A stretch of DNA of 64,000 nt from Maridesulfovibrio salexigens DSM 2638 (GTDB taxonomy: Bacteria; Desulfobacterota; Desulfovibrionia; Desulfovibrionales; Desulfovibrionaceae), in assembly GCF_000023445.1 (NCBI RefSeq), contig NC_012881.1, positions 687,501 to 751,500 on the forward strand. The letters are read 5' to 3'. Below the pieces are notes generated by a model, which worked only from the letters and a program-made list of their open reading frames with translations, had not been told where the DNA came from and made no database searches. Shown piece after piece: positions 47,082-59,556 of this stretch; the stretch's first letter is position 1, and each line of letters opens with the position of its first letter. Both the position numbers and the translations under genes were made by a program.

Positions 47082-48488
47082 CTACCTGCGGGTCAGGCCA
47101 TATTTTTTCAGTTTGTACTGAAGAGTCCTGCGGCTGATTCCGAGAGCCTCAGCGGTCCTTTCGCGATGATGCTGGTTGGCTTCAAGGGCGGCTATAAGGG
47201 CCTGACGTTCCGCATCATCAAGAGTGGGGGTTCCGGTCGCAGTGGGCGCAGCCTGTTGAGTCTGTTGAGTCGGTTGCGTTGATGGTGCCGCTTCCGGTGA
47301 TGCCTGCCTTGGAGCGGGATTAATCACCTGCGGAGGCAGCAGTTCCGGCCCCAAGACTTCACTGCGGCTCAAAATGATGGCCCGCTCAAGTACGTTTTCC
47401 AGTTCACGGACGTTTCCGGGCCAGTCGTAACGACCGAGCGCATCCAGAAAGGAAGGGCTGACTGAACGTACTTTTTTATTATTCTTACGGCCAAGCTTTT
47501 CCAGCAGATAAGCTACCAGTGAAGGCAGGTCGCCAACACGTTCTCTCAGCGGTGGTATGCGGATTTCAAGGACGCTTAACCGATAGTAAAGATCCTCGCG
47601 GAAATTCCCTTTTTCAACTTCCTTTTTCAGGTCGCGGTTGGTCGCGGCAATGATGCGTACATCAGTTTCCACCGGGGAAACGCTACCTAACGGTTCAACT
47701 ACTTTTTCCTGCAAAGCCCGCAAAATTTTTGCTTGCAGCACCGGATCCATTTCCCCGATTTCATCAAGGAAGAGGGTGCCGCCGGAAGCGAGCTGGAAAC
47801 GTCCGGGTTTGTTGGCATTGGCCCCGGTAAATGCTCCTTTCATATAGCCGAAAAGTTCACTTTCAAGCAGATCCGCAGGCAGTGCCGCACAGTTGACTTT
47901 GACCAGAGGTTTGTCGGCGCGCTGGCTTGCCCTGTGCAATCCTTCAGCAACCAGTTCTTTACCTGTACCGGATTCACCCAGTACGAGGATGGTCGCTTCA
48001 GAAGGTCCGGCCTGTTCAATGAGATCCTTCACGTTGAGCATACCCTGCGAGCTGCCGATCATTTGCTCTGTTGCTCCGGCGGCGGACTTGAGCTTTTCGT
48101 TTTCATCCACCAGTCTGGAGTAATCAAGAGCTTTGGCTAAAACGGCCTTGAGCTCTTCGTTGTCTGCTGGTTTGGTCAGATAGTCGAATGCGCCATGTTT
48201 CATGGCGATAACTGCTGAGTTCACGTTGCCGTAGGCAGTGAGCATGATAACCGGCAGACCGGGCATTATGGTATTAAGCTCCTTGAGCAGGGCCATACCG
48301 TCCATCCCTTCCATACGCATGTCGATCAGGGCTGCATTTAATGTCAGTCCGGGAAGCATTTCAAGGGCCTGTTCGCCGGACTGGGCTTCATGCACATTCC
48401 AGCCGTCACTTTCCAGTACAGCCCGGATAAGCAGGCGCAGTGACGGTTCATCGTCAACTATGAGTACATTCTTTCCTATGGCGTTCAT
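47082..48488 (-). CDS. Sigma-54-dependent NtrC-family response regulator (ZraR-like)
   Basis: A 468-residue transcription activator. Receiver domain residues 1-120 with phosphorylation site D56 (LIDMRM). AAA+ domain with Walker A GESGTGKE (171-178), the sigma-54 contact loop KGAFTGA (218-224) and Walker [12 protein letters not shown] Pro/Gln/Thr linker lies at about 395-425, then a Fis-type HTH ([20 protein letters not shown]). Its ATG shares a base with the kinase stop, so the pair is coupled. Sigma-54 promoters and TGCAC dyads in front of the two nearby zraP-like genes are its likely targets (inference). Confidence 0.95.
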
Positions 48489-50221
48489 TATTCTGATCCT
48501 TCATCACGCGGTGCCGGGAAAAAGAGCATTACGCAAGTTCCATCCAGAGGACCGGGCAGATCCGGTGCGGAGATGGTTACCCGACCATTGTGGCCGCGCA
48601 TGATTGTGTTGACTATAGCAAGCCCTAAACCAGTTCCTTTGGGCTTGTCGGTGAAAAACGGTTCAAGGGCGTGTTTACGGATATCTTCAGGCATACCCGG
48701 ACCGTTGTCGCAGACGCTTAGCCAAACTCCGTGTTCGGTGCCTTCGGCAACAATGGAAATAGTGCCGTTAGTATCCGGAACAGCATCCAGGCTGTTGACC
48801 AGCAGGTTAAGCAGAACTTGTTTGATTCCGTCCGGGTCGGCATAAACCTGCTCAACATTAAGTTCGGTTTGTAGCCGTGTGCCCTTATGTTCAAGATCAA
48901 AACCCATGAGTGTCTGCATGGTTTCGCATATTTCACGCAGGTCCATAATTTCAGGATTCAATTCATGGGGTTTGGACAGATACAGCAGGTCTGTTACCAC
49001 CCTGTTTAACCGGTCTGCTTCGGTGAGCATTGTGGTCGCATATGTACCGTAGGGCTGCTCTTCTTTAAATTTGTCAGCAAATAGCTGTGCGAATCCACGC
49101 AGGGAGCTCAGGGGATTTCGTATCTCATGGGCTACACCTGCAGCGAGGGAGCCGATGGAAGCCAGTCTGCGCGCTTCGTGAAGATCTTCTTCCAGTCCGG
49201 CAATATCGGTGCGGTCACGGATTATGATCATCGTCCGTTGATCTTTTCTACTCTCAAAGTAGGGTAGGAAAATAAGCTCAAGGTTTTTGCCTCCTAGCCG
49301 GATATGCTCCCAGATCACGTTGTCCCGTTTGAAATCCTGTAGGGATTCGTAATTGAAATCATTCCAGTTCTTGCCCACAAGAACTTCATCGCTTTGGCAT
49401 TGCAGCAGCTTATGAGCGGAACCGTTAGCTGAAAGAATTCCGCCCTGAGGTGAAATGGTCAGCAAACCGTCCGGCATATTGTCCAGCAGGTTTGCTTGAA
49501 ACCGCTCCATGCGGGTCAGCTTTTTACCTTGTTCCCTGCGCTGAAAATAGGCCACGGCAAGCAGCCAGAGGACCAGTCCTGCAAGGAATATATAACCGGT
49601 TTGCAGCAGTGCAGCACGGCGGTACTGGTTAAACTGGCGCAGGTGTTTCTCAGCACTTAAGCCCAGCAGTAGAAAGGTCTCTTTATCTTGCGGAGGCATG
49701 AAGCCTCGTCTTTTATGACCGTATAGACGTTGCAGGATTGGCTGGCCCATTGTGCCGTACAGAAGGGCAGCCTTTCCTTCAATCATCACCGGAGTACTGG
49801 ATTCACGCATCTGGGTGATCATATCGAAAAGACCTGGCGGCGGCGTATAGACTGTAGAATCATCATCAGCCTGTTCCACCACCAGTATCGGCTTGCGGTC
49901 CGGTCCGTAGAGCGCGATGTAGAGCAAATCGCCCTCGGCAACCATCTCTTTAAATAGCTCACGCGCATCCGGGATCAATTGCTGGGGCATGCGTCGATTA
50001 TGCATGCCCGGAGAGCGCATGCGCCGAGCTCCTTCGACCAGCTGTATATCCAGACCACGGGCAATGGAACGTGCGGAAAGCAGCATATGTTCAAACACGG
50101 TCTGATGCATCTGGCGCAAGTTGTGCCATGTAAGGTACAAACTTCCGGCTCCTAGAAGGATCAGGGCCAGCAGAGCCAGAGCAAGAGGCAGCTTATGTGA
50201 TTTCTGTGAGCTTAATTCCAT
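48488..50221 (-). CDS. Membrane sensor histidine kinase with PAS domain (ZraS-like)
   Basis: A 577-residue kinase. Transmembrane helices at about 13-31 and 205-226 enclose a ~170-residue periplasmic sensor rich in Met, His and Arg ([25 protein letters not shown]), plausible metal-binding features. A PAS domain (about 240-345) precedes the HisKA helix with phospho-His365 ([15 protein letters not shown]). The ATPase has N box [15 protein letters not shown]1 DNGPGMPE and G2 GTGLGLAIV. It overlaps the regulator gene and follows the DUF4405 gene by 15 nt. The signal is not known; metal or redox stress is inferred. Confidence 0.93.
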
Positions 50222-50236
50222 TGAATCCGATTATGT

Positions 50237-51088
50237 TTAAGGATTGAGCAGTTCACCGATGGCCCGAGGAGATTCGAGTCCCAGTGCGCCTGCAATTTCC
50301 TTGATGGGGGTGTCTTTGTCAACAATCACACCTTTTTCGCGCAAAATTCCCAGTGCTGTATTCAGGTCAAGATTAAACTTTGCACAGTACGCTTCTACAC
50401 TCATACGACCGATTCCGGCTCCCGCAGAGTGGGAAGGAGATTGTTTGTTGGGAGCACTGGATGTCTCTTTTTTTACAGAATTCTCTTTTCCGGGTTGGTC
50501 CTTGAGGATAATTTCATGAAGTTCCTTAGGAGTCAGTCCCGCTTTATTGGCAATGGATTTGATACTTTCTTTGGTAGATTCCAGTTCTATGCCTGCATTT
50601 TTGATGGATGCTGCTGCCTTATCAAGATCAAGCCCCATGCGTTTGCAGAAAATATTAAGCGGACTGAGTTCCGCGTGGCCATATGGCGGTATACCGTATT
50701 TGGCTTCACCCATAGCTTTAAAATCCTGACTGAATTCGAGCACCTGCTTCATGGGAGGCAAGCCTGCCAGAGTTCCGAAAGCCACGAACAGCGTGATAGT
50801 CAGGCTGATAAAAAAAGCTGGGGAGGTAAAGTTTGATTCACCGGCTTTCTTTTTAAGGTAAGCGAGAATGGGCTTCCAGTTCAGCCAGATGTGCAGGATA
50901 GAGACAACAAGGAAAAGTGCTCCGGTGCAGATGTGGATATCGCCCCATTGCTCTTTACTGAGGCCGAGCATGCTCCAATCCGCCCAATAGGCTACACGGC
51001 CCTGCGGTACGATGTACAGGATGACGCTGGTAATGATCAGGACAATAAAGGAAAAGAAACTGGTCAGGGATGTTGTTTTTCTAAACAT
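50237..51088 (-). CDS. DUF4405-type membrane protein with C-terminal helical repeats
   Basis: A 283-residue protein. The N-terminal third matches the DUF4405/flavinylation-associated cytochrome type: helices FFSFIVLIITSVILYIV, WGDIHICTGALFLVVSILHI (two His, possible haem ligands) and a third helix near 90-110. The rest is soluble and has two similar segments, LNIFCKRMGLDLDKAAASIK and VEAYCAKFNLDLNTALGILR, each followed by an I-K-x-I-A motif; they look like an internal duplication of a small helical domain. Upstream of and probably co-transcribed with the kinase. Could feed redox information to the sensor; that is inference. Confidence 0.75.
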   Translation of the reverse strand: MFRKTTSLTSFFSFIVLIITSVILYIVPQGRVAYWADWSMLGLSKEQWGDIHICTGALFLVVSILHIWLNWKPILAYLKKKAGESNFTSPAFFISLTITLFVAFGTLAGLPPMKQVLEFSQDFKAMGEAKYGIPPYGHAELSPLNIFCKRMGLDLDKAAASIKNAGIELESTKESIKSIANKAGLTPKELHEIILKDQPGKENSVKKETSSAPNKQSPSHSAGAGIGRMSVEAYCAKFNLDLNTALGILREKGVIVDKDTPIKEIAGALGLESPRAIGELLNP

Positions 51089-51157
51089 GAGATTCTCCTA
51101 TGATTTGTACTGATATTACTAACGTAAACTATCCTGAATATGGAAGTGAATTTAATA

Positions 51158-51187
51158 AAAAAAGGAGGACCTTATAGCCCTCCTTTT
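51158..51187. terminator. Intrinsic terminator between zraP-like gene 1 and the DUF4405 operon
   Basis: Stem AAAAGGAGG/CCTCCTTTT with A run on the left and T run on the right. It separates the zraP-like unit from the DUF4405-kinase-regulator operon. Confidence 0.82.
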
Positions 51188-51234
51188 TACCCGTTTTCCT
51201 GTAATTAAGTGTAGATGAACGTTATTTAAAGGAT

Positions 51235-51732
51235 TTAGTAGCAATTGCCGCCGGGGCAATTCATCTGCTTGAAGTTTCCGCAGTTACCGCTACCGCCGGG
51301 ACATCCCTGCTGATAATTACCGCAGCCTCTGCCGCCTTTACCGTATCCTTGCCCCATGGGGGGGAATGACAGACCGGTTTCTTTTTCTATTTCAGCGGCC
51401 ATCTTGTTGTGCTCGGTGTAAAGCTTGTCACGTACATCGGAAAGTTCTTTTACCAGAGCATGGATGGTATCTTTATCGGCTTTGCCGGAATCCACCAGAG
51501 CTTTGAGTTCAGTGTGTTTTGCCCACTGTTCGCTTTTCAGGGTTTGAAATGTGGATTCGTATTTTTTGATGATGTCCTGAACCTGTTTTTGCTTTTCAGG
51601 TGTCAGCTGCTCATATGCAGCCCAGTTACCGTTGTGGTAACCAGCGTTCCGGTAACCGTTTCGTGCCATGGCGACAGATGCTACTGCCAGAACCAGCACA
51701 ACGATCAGCGGAATCAGAGTTTTTCTCTTCAT
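51235..51732 (-). CDS. ZraP/Spy-like periplasmic protein 1 (Cys-rich tail)
   Basis: A 165-residue periplasmic protein with signal peptide (MKRKTLIPLIVVLVLAVASV). The helical core has the LTPEKQKQVQDIIKKYESTF motif (LTxxQ type) and a KALVDSGKADKDTIHALVKE segment of the ZraP/Spy/CpxP family, which chaperones periplasmic proteins and binds metals. The tail is Gly/Cys-rich with five Cys (RGCGNYQQGCPGG..NCG..NCPGGNCY), comparable to the metal-binding tail of ZraP. ATG 51732 has AGGAGA upstream. A sigma-54 promoter lies 50 nt before it. Confidence 0.88.
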   Translation of the reverse strand: MKRKTLIPLIVVLVLAVASVAMARNGYRNAGYHNGNWAAYEQLTPEKQKQVQDIIKKYESTFQTLKSEQWAKHTELKALVDSGKADKDTIHALVKELSDVRDKLYTEHNKMAAEIEKETGLSFPPMGQGYGKGGRGCGNYQQGCPGGSGNCGNFKQMNCPGGNCY

Positions 51733-51779: not shown

Positions 51780-51798
51780 AAAGCACGTGCTGTGCCAA
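51780..51798 (-). promoter_or_regulatory. Sigma-54 promoter of zraP-like gene 1
   Basis: Reads TTGGCACAGCACGTGCTTT on the minus strand. The -24 GG and -12 GC are separated by exactly 10 nt. Predicted start of transcription near 51771, giving a leader of about 39 nt, the same as for the second gene. Confidence 0.85.
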
Positions 51799-51833
51799 AA
51801 GTAAAAGTTGTTTTAAAACATGTGTTTAGTATG

Positions 51834-51899
51834 TTTGTGCAAGTTTGCGATACTGTTTTAGTGCAAAGTTTTTGTGCATCATATTGCACAAAAGGTGCA
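51834..51899. promoter_or_regulatory. Array of TGCAC half-sites, probable activator binding region
   Basis: At least four TGCACAAA-type half-sites occur on both strands (about 51834-51842, 51861-51868, 51872-51879 and 51885-51890). The best dyad is TGCAC-AAAAG-GTGCA at 51885-51899, centred about 121 bp upstream of the predicted transcription start. It resembles NtrC-type enhancers (TGCAC-N5-GTGCA). The regulator is inferred to be the NtrC-type protein encoded at 47.1-48.5 kb. Confidence 0.65.
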
Positions 51900-51972
51900 G
51901 GTTTACCTGCAAACCTGCATGTGGGGATTCAGGGCGGGAGTCGCTTAATTTTGGAGGTATTAAAGAAAATAA

Positions 51973-52001
51973 AAAAGAGGCCCGGGGAGGGGGCCTCTTT
52001 T
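51973..52001. terminator. Intrinsic terminator after zraP-like gene 2
   Basis: Stem AAAAGAGGCCC with GGGCCTCTTTT and a G-rich loop, with T run on the minus strand. It ends the zraP-like gene 2 transcript. Confidence 0.85.
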
Positions 52002-52067
52002 CGTCAAAGGGGATGGATGGAGTGTTCTGTTTATGCGTAGGATCTTGTTTGGGGTTATTTATCTAGC

Positions 52068-52544
52068 TTATGAGTTCCAACACCCTCTGTAATCATTGTT
52101 GTGTCTATGGCCTTTACGGGGACCGTCGTCATCAAAGTTGCGACCGCCGCCGAATCCCCGCATAGGCATTTCAATTCCGGTGGCTGTCTGAATTTCATTA
52201 TTGACCTGCTTGCGGAGGTTGTAGGCCTTGGTTCTCAAGTCGACCATTTCCTTAACCAGCTTGCTGATTGTTTTTTGGTCGGCTTTACCGGAATCCACGA
52301 GCGCATTCAGTTCGGTGCGTTTTGCCCACATCTGACTTTTAATGGTCTGGAATTCGTCCTGATGTTTTTGGAAGATGGTTTCCACTTCTTTCTGTTTTTC
52401 CGGGGTCAGCTGCTCAAAGATCTGGCGGGGACCGTTATTGTATCCGTTATGTTCGCCGCCGTGGTATCCGCCTCGGGCCATTGCTGTTCCGGCCATGGCC
52501 ATAACCATAATTGCGACTACGGGAATCACGATTTTCTTTTTCAT
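52068..52544 (-). CDS. ZraP/Spy-like periplasmic protein 2 (His-rich tail)
   Basis: A 158-residue paralogue of protein 1. Signal peptide MKKKIVIPVVAIMVMAMAGT; core FEQLTPEKQKEVETIFQKHQ and NALVDSGKADQKTISKLVKE. The tail differs: Gly/Asp/His-rich (FGGGRNFDDDGPRKGHRHNN) with one Cys. Metal specificity could therefore differ from protein 1. It has its own sigma-54 promoter and terminator. The two genes look like an old local duplication. Confidence 0.87.
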   Translation of the reverse strand: MKKKIVIPVVAIMVMAMAGTAMARGGYHGGEHNGYNNGPRQIFEQLTPEKQKEVETIFQKHQDEFQTIKSQMWAKRTELNALVDSGKADQKTISKLVKEMVDLRTKAYNLRKQVNNEIQTATGIEMPMRGFGGGRNFDDDGPRKGHRHNNDYRGCWNS

Positions 52545-52592
52545 AGTTCTCTCCTTACTTGGATGAATTATTGCTGTCTCGTAATTCTCCTA

Positions 52593-52611
52593 AAGCATGG
52601 CCCGTGCCAAA
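52593..52611 (-). promoter_or_regulatory. Sigma-54 promoter of zraP-like gene 2
   Basis: Reads TTGGCACGGGCCATGCTTT on the minus strand, GG-N10-GC. Leader of about 39 nt to the ATG at 52544, as for gene 1. Confidence 0.88.
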
Positions 52612-52698
52612 GTTACTAACCGCTTAAGTTGCTTGAATTAAGGTTTAATTTCCTTCCTGAGCAGTCTGAAAACACTTATGCAATGAATTGCGCATACG

Positions 52699-52713
52699 TG
52701 CACAAAAAGTGCA
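52699..52713. promoter_or_regulatory. TGCAC-N5-GTGCA dyad upstream of zraP-like gene 2
   Basis: TGCAC-AAAAA-GTGCA, centred about 123 bp upstream of the predicted transcription start, nearly the same distance as in gene 1. A further TTGCAC half-site is at 52728-52733. Likely the same activator binds both. Confidence 0.7.
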
Positions 52714-52751: not shown

Positions 52752-53414
52752 CTAAATAGTTTTACCGTCCTCCAGCTCTATTGTGTCTTTAGCCATGCTG
52801 GCATGGACCCGATCATGGGTGACCATCGCGATGGTCAGTCCTTCCTTATTGAGCTTGTGAAGTATTTCTATGATCTCATTGCCTGTTGATTTATCCAGAC
52901 TGCCGCAAGGTTCATCAGCAAAGAGTATGGACGGTGACTTTACCAGAGCCCTCGCAATGGCGACTCGCTGTTGCTCTCCTCCTGACAACTGTCCGGGAAG
53001 ACGGTCTTCCTTGCCCGCAAGTCCCACGCGTTCAAGGCATTCCCTTCCACGTTCCAACAGTTCTTTGTTCGCCGGTGCCAGCCTGTCCAGAAAGGGCAGT
53101 AGCACATTCTCATGGGCAGTGAGATAAGGCAGCAAATGGTGAGACTGGAAGATAATGGAGAATTCTTCCTTTCTAAGTCTGTCGATTTCAGAACCGGGTA
53201 GATTTGTGATTTCTTTTTCCTTGAAATAAACCTGACCCTGCTCAGGTTTAAGCAGGCTCGATATGACGCTTAGCAAGGTTGATTTGCCGGAACCTGACCG
53301 GCCGACAATTGAGGTGAATCCACCTTCAGGTATATCAATTGATACATTGTCCAGAACTGTTACAGCTGCGGACCCTTCACCATAGCTATGGCTGATTGAT
53401 TCTGTCTTAAGCAT
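52752..53414 (-). CDS. LolD/MacB-type ABC transporter ATP-binding protein
   Basis: A 220-residue cytoplasmic ATPase: Walker [10 protein letters not shown], signature [15 protein letters not shown], Walker [13 protein letters not shown], switch VTHDR. It belongs with the FtsX-type permease encoded 9 nt upstream and the DUF2318 lipoprotein-like gene before it. Last gene of this operon; export or mechanotransmission rather than import is expected for this family. Confidence 0.92.
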
Positions 53415-53423
53415 ATTAAATCC

Positions 53424-54584
53424 TTACAGTGAAACAAGGGTTCTAGAGGGATCAACGCGTGTGGCACGTATTGAGGGGATGGTAGCGGAAAGGACAGCCA
53501 GCCCAGCCACGGCAAGGAAGGTGATCCCGAAGGCCAGTGGATCAAAAGCAATTTCAGCTTCACCCATGTTCAGGTTCTTGAGGATTTCACCACTGGCAAA
53601 GTATCCGCCCAGATAACCAAGAATTCCCGAAATGCAGCCCATAAGCAGTGCCTCAAGGCAGAATATTGAAAACACCGATCCTGTTGAAAATCCCAGCGAG
53701 CGCATAAGCCCGATTTCTGTTTTACGTTCATTTACTGCCGAGAATATGGAGAGACCGATCATGAAGCAGGCAGTGAGGAGAATCACTCCGCTTACGGTCC
53801 AAGCCATCTGGTTTACAAAGTTGATGGCAGACATGCGTTGTTTTACAACATGCTGAAGTGCTTTAACTTCTGCGCCCGGTACCGCCTTGACGATTTGCTG
53901 TACGATTTCATCAATGGGGCATCCGGCGCAAAGGGCGGCAACTTCAATGAAATGTACTGCTCCGGGACGGCCTACGCTGTTGCGCAGCAGGTCAATATCC
54001 ATAAAGATTACATTATCGTCTTCGGTTCCGGTGGGATCAAGAATACCTGCAGTTAGGAGCTTGTTTCCTTCTATTTCAAGGGCATCGCCGGGGTTTATTC
54101 CCAGCTTGCTGGCGGCATTGATACCGATAACAATTTCATTTTGTTTTTCAGGAAAACGGCCCAGAGGGTACCAATGGGTTTTAATATTTAATTCATCGGC
54201 CATGCTGACCCCGACAACCGCCACCTGTTGTCCTTTAACTTTGGAAATGGCGGCGAATTTGGGGGCTACAGCACTGAGGCGCTCCTTCAGTTCAATACCG
54301 CGAACAGCTTTAAGTACAGGCGTTCCCTGCAATTCATGAGATCCGTAAGCTACATTTCCGAGATCGAGTCCTCCATAACTTACGGACAGTGATTCTGTTT
54401 TCGGGGTAATCAGAATGTTGGCCCCGAATTTACTCATTTTCTCTTCAAGGCTGTTGCCAACAACTGTAGAGAGCAACTGGATGGAAACCACAGACATGAC
54501 GCCCACAGTGAACACTGCGCATAGAAGAATGGTACGTAAAGGACGTCGGCCAAGGTTACGCAGGGGAATAGTAAAAAGATTCAT
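53424..54584 (-). CDS. FtsX/MacB-type ABC transporter permease
   Basis: A 386-residue membrane protein. One N-terminal helix (about 17-38), a ~200-residue periplasmic domain (SKFGANILITPKTESLSVSY onward) containing a CAGCP Cys pair, then three C-terminal helices as in MacB/LolC. Its periplasmic domain probably captures the substrate or partner. Between the DUF2318 gene and its ATPase. Confidence 0.9.
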   Translation of the reverse strand: MNLFTIPLRNLGRRPLRTILLCAVFTVGVMSVVSIQLLSTVVGNSLEEKMSKFGANILITPKTESLSVSYGGLDLGNVAYGSHELQGTPVLKAVRGIELKERLSAVAPKFAAISKVKGQQVAVVGVSMADELNIKTHWYPLGRFPEKQNEIVIGINAASKLGINPGDALEIEGNKLLTAGILDPTGTEDDNVIFMDIDLLRNSVGRPGAVHFIEVAALCAGCPIDEIVQQIVKAVPGAEVKALQHVVKQRMSAINFVNQMAWTVSGVILLTACFMIGLSIFSAVNERKTEIGLMRSLGFSTGSVFSIFCLEALLMGCISGILGYLGGYFASGEILKNLNMGEAEIAFDPLAFGITFLAVAGLAVLSATIPSIRATRVDPSRTLVSL

Positions 54585-54593
54585 GCGCGCTCC

Positions 54594-55007
54594 TTAGAAG
54601 TACATGGCCCCGGATCTGACCGCATCCAGAGAAATTACCAGCTTATCATCTTTGGTTTCTCTTGCCAGCGGAGAAGGGTTGCAACCACCTTTGACCACGT
54701 TGATACGTGTAGAGTGGAAGCGCATGCCGCAATTGTTGCAAACCATGAAGTCACCTTGCTGTGAGTATCCTTTTTTTGAGCGATAGCAGACATCACATGC
54801 ATCGAAAGCAGCTCTGATAATTCCATCTTTGCTGCGGACTACAAAAAAACGGATCTCTTTTCCGTCAAGATTTACTGAGTAATAATGGGCCTGACCGTCA
54901 TTTACTTCATTGATCGGGATGCTCAGTTCCTTATCCCCAATTTCCATTCCTGCAAATCCGTTTGCAGGCAGAAGCAGAAAAGCCAAAAGTAAAATCATTT
55001 TTTTCAT
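54594..55007 (-). CDS. DUF2318 (FtrD-like) periplasmic cysteine protein
   Basis: A 137-residue protein with signal peptide MKKMILLLAFLLLPANGFAG. The Cys set C71, C74 (FDACDVCYRSKKGY), C90, C93 (MVCNNCGMRF) and C109 (VKGGCNPSPL) is the DUF2318 signature. Relatives are linked to iron or copper handling and proposed to bind an Fe-S cluster or metal. The ATG at 55007 has AAGGAG 8 nt upstream. First gene of the DUF2318-permease-ATPase operon. No sigma-54 promoter was found before it. Confidence 0.85.
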   Translation of the reverse strand: MKKMILLLAFLLLPANGFAGMEIGDKELSIPINEVNDGQAHYYSVNLDGKEIRFFVVRSKDGIIRAAFDACDVCYRSKKGYSQQGDFMVCNNCGMRFHSTRINVVKGGCNPSPLARETKDDKLVISLDAVRSGAMYF

Positions 55008-55130
55008 GAAAAACACTCCTTTAAAATTCTATACCGCAGTAGTATGCAATTGTCGTACAAGGAGAGTTATTTCAATAGGTAGCAGTTTTGGTCAGTTGCT
55101 TATGAGTGGAAGATATAGTGATTTGTGCAA

Positions 55131-58326: not shown

Positions 58327-59556
58327 TTATGCGATGTCAGTGAACCATTTGCGCATCCTGCCCAGAATGCGGTTGAAAACATTTTCGTCACGGATTCTGA
58401 AGACTTGCTCGGAGCTGCCTTCTTTTTCCGCGCCGTACATGAGCAGCCCTACTGCAGTGGCGTATTTGGGACTGCTGACAACATCCTTAAGGCCTCCCAC
58501 GCCAGCGGGATAGCCAATGCGGACCGGCAGATCAAAAATCTGCTCCGCCAGTTCCTGCATTCCGTCCACGAGAGATGTGCCTCCGGTGAGAACTACCCCG
58601 GCTGCAATCATATTTTTGTACCCGCTGCGGACCAGCTCCTGATCAACCAGTGACAGGATTTCCTCACAACGAGGTTCGCAGATCTCAGCCAGTACTCTCT
58701 TGGACATTTTGCGGTGATCGCGGCCGCCTACGGAAGGCACGTCAATGGTCTCGTCAGTAGTGACCAGATCGGTGAGCGCGGTTCCGTATTTGACTTTGAT
58801 CTGTTCCGCAGACCCCATGGGCGTTCTCAGCCCGAATGCAATGTCGTTAGTCAGGTTGTTACCGCCGAGGGCAATAACAGAAGTATGTTTAATTGAATCA
58901 TTGGCGAAGATTGCCAGATCAGTGGTACCACCCCCGATATCCACTATGGCAACGCCGATTTCTCTTTCCTCTTCGGAAAGAACGGCCTTGCTTGAAGCCA
59001 GTGATTCAAGAACGATGTCGGAAACGTCCAGCCCTGAACGGTGGCAGGAACGGATGATGTTCTGTGCAGAGGTTACCGCGCCGGTGACGATGTGGACCTT
59101 TACTTCGAGGCGCACACCGGCCATGCCCAGCGGATCGGCAATGCCGCGCTGATCGTCAACAATGTATTCCTGCGGCAGGGTGTGAATCACTTCCCTGTCC
59201 AGAGGAATGGCTACTGCTTTGGCTGCATCGATAACCCGGTCGACATCCTTCTGGGTTACTTCGCCGCCTTTTACAGCAATAACGCCGTGGCTGTTGAAAC
59301 CTTTGATGTGGCTGCCTGCGATGCCCGCGTATACGGAGCGGATTTCGCAGCCGGCCATGAGTTCAGCCTCTTCAAGAGCCTTCTTGATAGACTGTACTGT
59401 CTGCTCAATGTTGACCACCACGCCTTTGCGCAGTCCTGTGGACGGGGCAGTGCCGATGCCGACAATGTCGACTCCGTCCGCGGTGGGTTCTCCCACAACT
59501 GCGCAGATCTTTGTGGTGCCGACATCGAGGCCGACGATCAGATCAGACTTGGACAT
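58327..59556 (-). CDS. ftsA: Cell division protein FtsA
   Basis: A 409-residue actin-like protein linking FtsZ to the membrane. Motifs are IVGLDVGTTKICAVVGE (phosphate 1), VAIVDIGGGTTDLAIF (phosphate 2) and VVLTGGTSLVDGMQELAE (adenosine). The C-terminal amphipathic membrane helix is RILGRMRKWFTDIA. Upstream of ftsZ by 114 nt. Confidence 0.97.
   Translation of the reverse strand: MSKSDLIVGLDVGTTKICAVVGEPTADGVDIVGIGTAPSTGLRKGVVVNIEQTVQSIKKALEEAELMAGCEIRSVYAGIAGSHIKGFNSHGVIAVKGGEVTQKDVDRVIDAAKAVAIPLDREVIHTLPQEYIVDDQRGIADPLGMAGVRLEVKVHIVTGAVTSAQNIIRSCHRSGLDVSDIVLESLASSKAVLSEEEREIGVAIVDIGGGTTDLAIFANDSIKHTSVIALGGNNLTNDIAFGLRTPMGSAEQIKVKYGTALTDLVTTDETIDVPSVGGRDHRKMSKRVLAEICEPRCEEILSLVDQELVRSGYKNMIAAGVVLTGGTSLVDGMQELAEQIFDLPVRIGYPAGVGGLKDVVSSPKYATAVGLLMYGAEKEGSSEQVFRIRDENVFNRILGRMRKWFTDIA

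Follow-up and report, generated by a model that had tools for sequence, protein, structure and literature searches.

The window analysed here, a stretch of 64,000 nucleotides from the genome of Maridesulfovibrio salexigens DSM 2638 (NC_012881.1, positions 687,501 to 751,500), contains five genes that are read in the same direction from the minus strand. In order of transcription these are zraP2 and zraP1, which encode exported proteins of the Metal_resist family, followed by the genes for a DUF4405 membrane protein, a membrane sensor histidine kinase and an NtrC-type response regulator (Table 1). A search of the genome with PF13801 (Metal_resist) found zraP1 and zraP2 as its sole two genes. 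Each zraP gene is preceded by a σ54-type promoter and, farther upstream, by an array of TGCAC and GTGCA half-sites, and is followed by a hairpin. In 18 loci (the window and 17 relatives) the 170 bp ahead of DUF4405, taken at its longest frame, showed neither a σ54 site nor a half-site, so autoregulation of the kinase and regulator genes would require read-through past the hairpin behind zraP1.

Table 1. Features of the zraP locus and of the distant RNA gene. Positions are those of the window, except for the RNA, which has a genome coordinate.
Feature	Position	Strand	Basis or details
NtrC-type σ54 response regulator with receiver, AAA+ and Fis-type HTH domains; both promoters are likely activated by it	47082..48488	-	Pfam Response_reg, Sigma54_activat, HTH_8
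Membrane sensor histidine kinase with PAS domain	48488..50221	-	Pfam HisKA, HATPase_c, PAS_8
DUF4405 membrane protein	50237..51088	-	PF14358, E=1.4e-20
Hairpin then U run between zraP1 and DUF4405; putative terminator or attenuator	51157..51190	-	fold of 51089-51234, -29.9 kcal/mol
zraP1, exported Metal_resist protein, Cys-rich tail	51235..51732	-	PF13801, E=4.1e-13; tail composition
zraP1 σ54-type promoter TGGCACAGCACGTGCT	51797-51782	-	predicted +1 51771, ATG 51732, leader 39 nt
zraP1 operator TGCAC-N5-GTGCA-N6-TGCAC-N8-TGCAC, extra TGCAC at 51837-51841	51861..51899	-	pattern search
Intrinsic-terminator-like hairpin 3' of zraP2	51971..52003	-	fold of 51960-52067, -20.1 kcal/mol
zraP2, exported Metal_resist protein, His-containing tail	52068..52544	-	PF13801, E=4.8e-15; PDB ZraP 3lay, E=9.1e-7; tail composition
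zraP2 σ54-type promoter TGGCACGGGCCATGCT	52609-52594	-	predicted +1 52583, ATG 52544, leader 39 nt
zraP2 operator TGCAC-N5-GTGCA-N5-GCGCA-N6-TGCAT	52678..52713	-	pattern search
Candidate ~145-nt non-coding RNA	G000:C1:2647317-2647461	-	predicted; 1.9 Mb from the zraP locus

The order zraP-DUF4405-kinase-regulator is a conserved locus. It is present in the window and in all 15 loci fetched from the genus, which were selected via their own zraP match and which, with the window, provide 16 zraP1 and 7 zraP2 genes. A zraP match was found in 16 of the 17 genus genomes, the exception (G122) being 84% complete. Twin zraP genes are at the locus in seven of the 16 genomes and a single copy is present in the other nine; one of these nine is G093, in which a second, distant relative of ZraP (35% identity; G093:C1:572071-572394, L060) is encoded away from the zraP locus. 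Outside the genus, 28 genomes have a DUF4405 match, and of the 20 family loci that were fetched eight have the full four-gene order (L079, L080, L084, L085, L086, L089, L090 and L096). In L083 the kinase and regulator are inverted, and in the remaining loci at least one of the four genes is missing within the stretch fetched. The order zraP-kinase-regulator is also found without DUF4405 (L108, L110 and L112). Upstream of zraP2 in the window (52752-55016) are genes for an ABC ATPase, an FtsX-type permease and an FtrD-like protein, which keep this position in three twin-zraP species (L064, L065 and L066) and are absent from the other genus stretches fetched.

The catalytic half of the kinase is ZraS/AtoS-like. 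Its best PDB match is ZraS (9jfj, E=1.6e-41, residues 343-555), and its N-terminal half has no match among the matches listed. The regulator matches ZraR (1ojl, E=1.9e-84), with several other NtrC-family chains scoring higher, and AtoC is its best NCBIfam model; no equivalog cut-off was reached among the matches listed (25 families). At 17 positions in the HTH end of the regulator (445-468) at least 24 of the 25 aligned homologues have the same residue. In the DUF4405 protein H52 is present in 35/35 and H66 in 34/35 aligned sequences, which would suit a haem-binding membrane protein. A sequence search of the PDB with this protein found no match up to E=5.

Do the two exported proteins split metal specificities between them, as part of a metal-resistance system with duplicated targets? 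This was suggested in the original prediction from the difference between their tails, and the difference itself is consistent in the genus: there are 3–5 Cys in the tails of 16/16 zraP1 proteins, and 0–1 Cys with 1–4 His in those of 7/7 zraP2 proteins. The seven zraP2 proteins also form one clade, being one side of a tree branch (support 95/92, 93% of 200 bootstrap trees), which fits a single ancient duplication with later losses. However, 9 of the 16 zraP-bearing genus genomes manage with a single copy at the locus and zraP2 is decaying in one genome, while zraP of D. alaskensis G20 is given, in the accessible part of the source, as the gene most down-regulated at the higher Cu(II) level (log2FC -8.56; PMC8836040). 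A division of metals is therefore an unlikely explanation of the doubled gene.

The two promoters are as had been predicted, with a GG-N10-GC element ahead of each zraP gene and leaders, expected to be about 39 nt, of exactly that length from the predicted +1 to the ATG. On a promoter score devised ad hoc for this analysis (maximum 22), at least 20 was reached by 22 of the 23 genus zraP genes. The σ54 pattern by itself, with up to two mismatches, is not enriched within the window (35 found, 41 expected). Is the likeness of the two promoters the result of a recent duplication alone? The 80 bases before each promoter have 24 identical positions when compared ungapped, which is about chance level, so that the promoter match reflects retention and not recent copying. 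With the DNA before the promoters diverged and zraP2 forming a single clade, recent duplication alone was rejected.

The TGCAC-N5-GTGCA dyads noted in the original prediction are also present, at 51885-51899 and 52699-52713, and their centres are 121 and 123 bp upstream of the predicted +1. The layout at the two promoters is indeed the same. The dyad is, however, part of a larger putative operator with more half-sites, and its N5 spacer is found in certain species and does not amount to a recognition rule. This can be seen when the 23 genus zraP upstream regions are anchored on the best-scoring σ54 promoter of each. GTGCA starts between -114 and -120 in 23/23, preceded in 20/23 by a TGCAC that starts between -122 and -130; where both half-sites are present the spacer ranges from N2 to N6, and it is exactly N5 in just 8/23. 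Among the 16 zraP1 operators, 13 have a further GTGCA or TGCAC at -104 to -108, and all 16 have a TGCAC that starts at -91 to -96. At the corresponding positions of the zraP2 operators there are variant half-sites, for example GCGCA or TGCAT.

The dyad alone does not define a regulon. It is found at four places in the 4.29-Mb genome, against one for the reversed pattern, which is about the expectation for 10 fixed bases, and the two places other than zraP1 and zraP2 are inside genes. When the half-sites are combined with the promoter (TGCACN{2,12}GTGCAN{68,98}TGGCACN6TGC), three places remain and the reversed pattern finds none, so the genome search that had been proposed for defining the regulon does return a short list: zraP1, zraP2 and a third place, 1.9 Mb away, that no gene follows. 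Across the 17 genus genomes this strict pattern has 37 matches, against 1 for its reverse. By their coordinates 16 of these are at the third site, which has the candidate RNA described below, 14 at zraP1 and 6 at zraP2; the last one is in G126, before a zraP2 that has decayed. Slightly deviating sites are missed by the pattern: in G048 those of the two zraP genes, in G128 that of zraP1 and in G105 that of the RNA. The combination of operator and promoter is therefore far above chance, while each element alone is unremarkable. In G126 (G126:C1:205875 onward, L218) the decayed zraP2 still has a zraP2-type operator and an intact-looking σ54 promoter before it.

A looser scan of the M. salexigens genome, for GTGCA upstream of a relaxed σ54 site, found 11 places against 1 for the reversed pattern, and three of these have a half-site array. 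Elsewhere in this genome, G000:C1:1401058-1401162 (L120) has a σ54-type promoter (TGGCACGAGTTATGC) before the gene for a 93-aa Gly/Met-rich small membrane protein; upstream are GTGCA and TGCAC, with no array.

The third array and promoter, which were first found by the relaxed genome scan, are at G000:C1:2647473-2647587 on the minus strand. The half-sites (TGCAC at -126, GTGCA at -117, -104 and -92, and others at -149 and -132) have a layout near to that of zraP1. Behind the promoter is a stretch of about 145 nt that ends in a strong terminator. This candidate RNA has a blastn match in 17/17 genus genomes, in some of them partial only, and the best-scoring σ54 promoter with half-sites in each fetched stretch scores 20–21 of 22 in 17/17. 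The array is placed as in M. salexigens in nine of these genomes and about one helical turn closer in seven; it is irregular in L157.

The stem of the terminator was compared with 500 shuffles by five covariation measures. All of its cells (100%) have standard pairing, against 89.0% in the shuffles, its covariation score is 0.407 against 0.181, and 24 cells are changed on both sides against 7.9, with no shuffle as high in any of the three (0/500). The other two measures are no better than the shuffles: 4 of 11 stem pairs are changed on both sides (401/500 shuffles as high) and there are seven further pair types (496/500). The terminator loop, CCUCC, is invariant across the 17 genus RNAs. The element CUCCUU is found in 16/17 (it is absent from L155), within a near-invariant stretch, and constraint in the RNA peaks at these two unpaired elements. 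In the M. salexigens RNA the seed stretch ...UCAUUCCUCAUCAUCACUCCUU... has a mean unpaired probability of 0.81, and that of the CCUCC loop is 1.0.

The third site might instead drive expression of a small protein, or be no more than a terminator region shared with the transporter gene next to it, but either is improbable. A sense frame of 39–43 codons is present in 5/17 sequences, as is an antisense frame starting behind AAGGAGTG in 5/17, and at an analogous site in the genus g5 a protein of 62–66 aa is encoded. However, each of the two frames is broken in the other 12 sequences, so no ORF is kept in all 17, and constraint is greatest at the unpaired CUCCUU and the CCUCC loop. A terminator alone would also leave unexplained why the operator and σ54 promoter are kept in 17/17.

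The preferred reading is that the third site has a non-coding RNA. The 3' tail of 16S rRNA is similar to both of its unpaired elements, CUCCUU and CCUCC, and the complement of the seed stretch can be read as a Shine-Dalgarno sequence with a start codon. Together these make an anti-Shine-Dalgarno-like RNA the natural reading of the candidate. Its mRNA partners are less readily picked out. The 15-nt complement of the seed, with up to two mismatches, is found at 20 places in the genome against three for the reversed pattern; one of these is the RNA gene itself, and few are at plausible translation starts, with no convincing target set among them. Within the window the Shine-Dalgarno region of ftsA (58327-59556) has the best predicted pairing with the seed of 54 start regions taken from crude gene calls (-22.7 kcal/mol; the next has -22.1). 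The complement is also present in three close relatives, which is not independent evidence because their FtsA is 98.5–99.5% identical. The margin over the next start is small, and ftsA is one lead and not a convincing target.

In the loci searched the candidate reaches the gathering score of no Rfam family. There was no match up to E=1 for L124, only sub-gathering matches for L147 and L158, and none at gathering for 10 further loci, including one genus RNA (L163). Relaxed matches, all far below gathering, were rejected as family assignments. Outside the genus no convincing match to the genus RNA was found, and one match to the RNA model, in G042, was rejected because it looks like a chance terminator.

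The control sequence itself is more widely distributed. A wider pattern matches in 101 of the 237 family genomes, and in 24 of 44 genera among the matches listed, with two matches for the reversed pattern. Also among the matches listed, two sets of 12 and 47 loci were examined (the latter L256-L302, with L283-L302 chosen as further or second sites). In 21 of the 47 the site is followed by a gene whose small product is exported or has a signal-peptide-like start, and many of these products resemble ZraP. A second, different candidate RNA is present in g29, where conserved C-rich sequences with CUCC-type repeats and a common terminator follow the promoter and a frame is common to at most 2/6. 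Less surely, g13 and g38 would have differing RNAs of their own. The three g13 sequences (CAUUACUCCCUCCUUUUUU) and the eight of g38 (CCCCCUCC-type, after a strong hairpin) are conserved and C-rich. In g13 a frame is common to 3/3, though without an ATG start, and in g38 part of one is common to 8/8, so that either set may be coding. Two g21 sequences have neither a common frame nor CCUCC.

Not every site in these genera has an RNA. In g5 (L283, L285, L286, L287, L289 and L291) the operator and promoter are before a gene for a 62–66 aa membrane protein (MIDAVTVTLIIL...) in 6/6, with the start codon at or almost at the predicted +1, and an RNA was rejected there. In g9 (L236, L278 and L280) the genes behind the control sequence encode small exported proteins in place of a typical ZraP, and one of these is clearly rich in Met. 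Some matches were discarded as being at unrelated places, such as inside a gene (L238), before a nitrogenase-reductase-like gene (L237) or before another gene (L267).

Taking together the promoters, the operators and their conservation, the three-site regulon, and the conservation and terminator covariation of the RNA, all of which are read from the sequences, we infer a ZraPSR-like envelope-stress circuit of the Desulfovibrionaceae with three outputs, one of them a translation-lowering RNA. To this reading, in which activation by the locus regulator, the signal, the transcription of the RNA and its action and targets are all inferred, we give a probability of about 0.7. The membrane kinase, possibly with the adjoining DUF4405 membrane protein, would sense envelope stress such as metal or redox damage and phosphorylate the NtrC-type regulator. 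The regulator would then oligomerise on the GTGCA/TGCAC arrays some 90–130 bp upstream of the +1 and activate σ54 RNA polymerase at three promoters. Two of these would produce the exported ZraP/Spy-like proteins with their different tails, and the third the ~145-nt RNA. The RNA would most likely pair with Shine-Dalgarno and start-codon regions and lower the translation of a set of mRNAs, with the ZraP proteins meanwhile protecting the periplasm.

The original prediction had assigned both promoters to a single NtrC-type activator, and this is most likely the regulator of the same locus. The operator and the gene order are conserved together and the HTH end is near-invariant; the tie between regulator and operator is one of co-occurrence, which supports the assignment without proving it. 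The search of the genome with the regulator sequence returned 105 matches, so other regulators exist. Enterobacterial NtrC also recognises TGCAC-type half-sites, with a spacing of N7, whereas the pentamers here are N2–N6 apart. That nitrogen-control NtrC reads the half-sites in place of the locus regulator is the least probable of the alternatives, although those other regulators are present and the accessible part of PMC10746234 gives TGC-N11-GCA as the motif of NtrC in S. meliloti. Against it, the 37 genus matches are confined to zraP genes, a decayed zraP2 and the one RNA, and gene order links the operator to the adjacent regulator.

A broader reading is tentative, and we hold it to be somewhat less likely than its opposite. 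The ZraSR-type envelope-stress system of the Desulfovibrionaceae might couple a periplasmic chaperone to a σ54-driven anti-Shine-Dalgarno RNA whose sequence varies by genus (g1, g29 and probably g13 and g38), while the control sequence and a C-rich CCUCC-type motif are kept. The translation-lowering arm would then have been repeatedly recruited or reshaped under one activator.

In the circuit as we propose it, a single two-component switch appears to activate two related proteins that protect the periplasm, together with a distant, putative translation-blocking small RNA. The Cpx and σE envelope responses of enterobacteria have RNA arms. The ZraSR-like regulon described here has a fixed and readable size, two chaperones and one RNA, against a core of zraP/zraSR in E. 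coli. With its defined operator, its sharply bounded set of three promoters and the clear seed of its RNA it lends itself to testing in sulfate reducers, which are of environmental and industrial importance.

How does this system compare with those already described? The candidate RNA is reminiscent of the alpha-r14/NfeR1 ('cuckoo') sRNAs, which as described in the accessible part of PMC10746234 are likewise linked to stress, have unpaired motifs of the CCUCC type that can mask translation starts (a complementarity that is in silico here) and have a tie to NtrC. However, NfeR1 has three hairpins each with CCUCCUCCC and a σ70 promoter, and it is repressed by NtrC (PMC10746234). The RNA here has a σ54-type promoter, with CCUCC in a single loop and CUCCUU in a single linear element. 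The ar14 model (RF02344) gives 16.2 bits on the RNA here against a gathering score of 58.8 (E=4.6), which is not a family match.

With ZraPSR of E. coli and Salmonella the locus shares an exported ZraP-type protein, a kinase of the ZraS/AtoS class, an NtrC-type activator, a σ54 promoter and a small core regulon. The E. coli ZraR core targets are zraP/zraSR by gSELEX, with mgtA added by ChIP-exo, and ZraR is linked to envelope stress, in the accessible parts of PMC8249747 and PMC7657598; a ChIP-seq study cited in the former has 25 more targets. In ZraPSR zraP and zraSR are divergent, whereas here the locus is co-directional and includes a DUF4405 gene (the window and 15/15 genus loci), with two zraP genes, no σ54 site before the kinase genes, and an RNA target. 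The proteins also fall far short of the equivalog cut-offs of NCBIfam for ZraP (44 and 51 of 200 bits), ZraS (221 of 479) and ZraR (408 of 760), with the AtoS and AtoC models slightly ahead of the ZraS and ZraR models. The locus is therefore described here as ZraPSR-like in its working and is not named a ZraPSR system.

The counterpart of the system here is probably the DVU3381 regulon of D. vulgaris Hildenborough. DVU3381 is a two-component σ54 regulator with the targets DVU3382-DVU3381 and DVU3384 and the label 'envelope stress response' (PMC4641369 Table 1; PMC3333781). According to the accessible part of PMC3333781 its motif was among those tested by EMSA, and DVU3384, called hypothetical, is also a target of DVU0621. 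The regulator class and the envelope-stress label are the same in both systems and, as far as the accessible text of these sources goes, the RNA target is in the system here only. That text has no RNA listed for DVU3381 and one, 'upstream of DVU3282', for DVU1419 (PMC4641369), the regulator in a three-gene operon (PMC4641369/PMC3333781); this RNA may overlap with those described here. D. salexigens is among the genomes screened in PMC3333781, and the supplements of that paper may thus already include the zraP part. The original prediction, which knew of no doubled, TGCAC-controlled ZraP system with a DUF4405 partner, was sound in its observation and incomplete in its interpretation, having missed the DVU3381 regulon, the larger operator and the third target, which is outside the window. 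Judged by the accessible parts of these sources, the system apart from its RNA is probably that of the published DVU3381 regulon, and the RNA arm is its new part.
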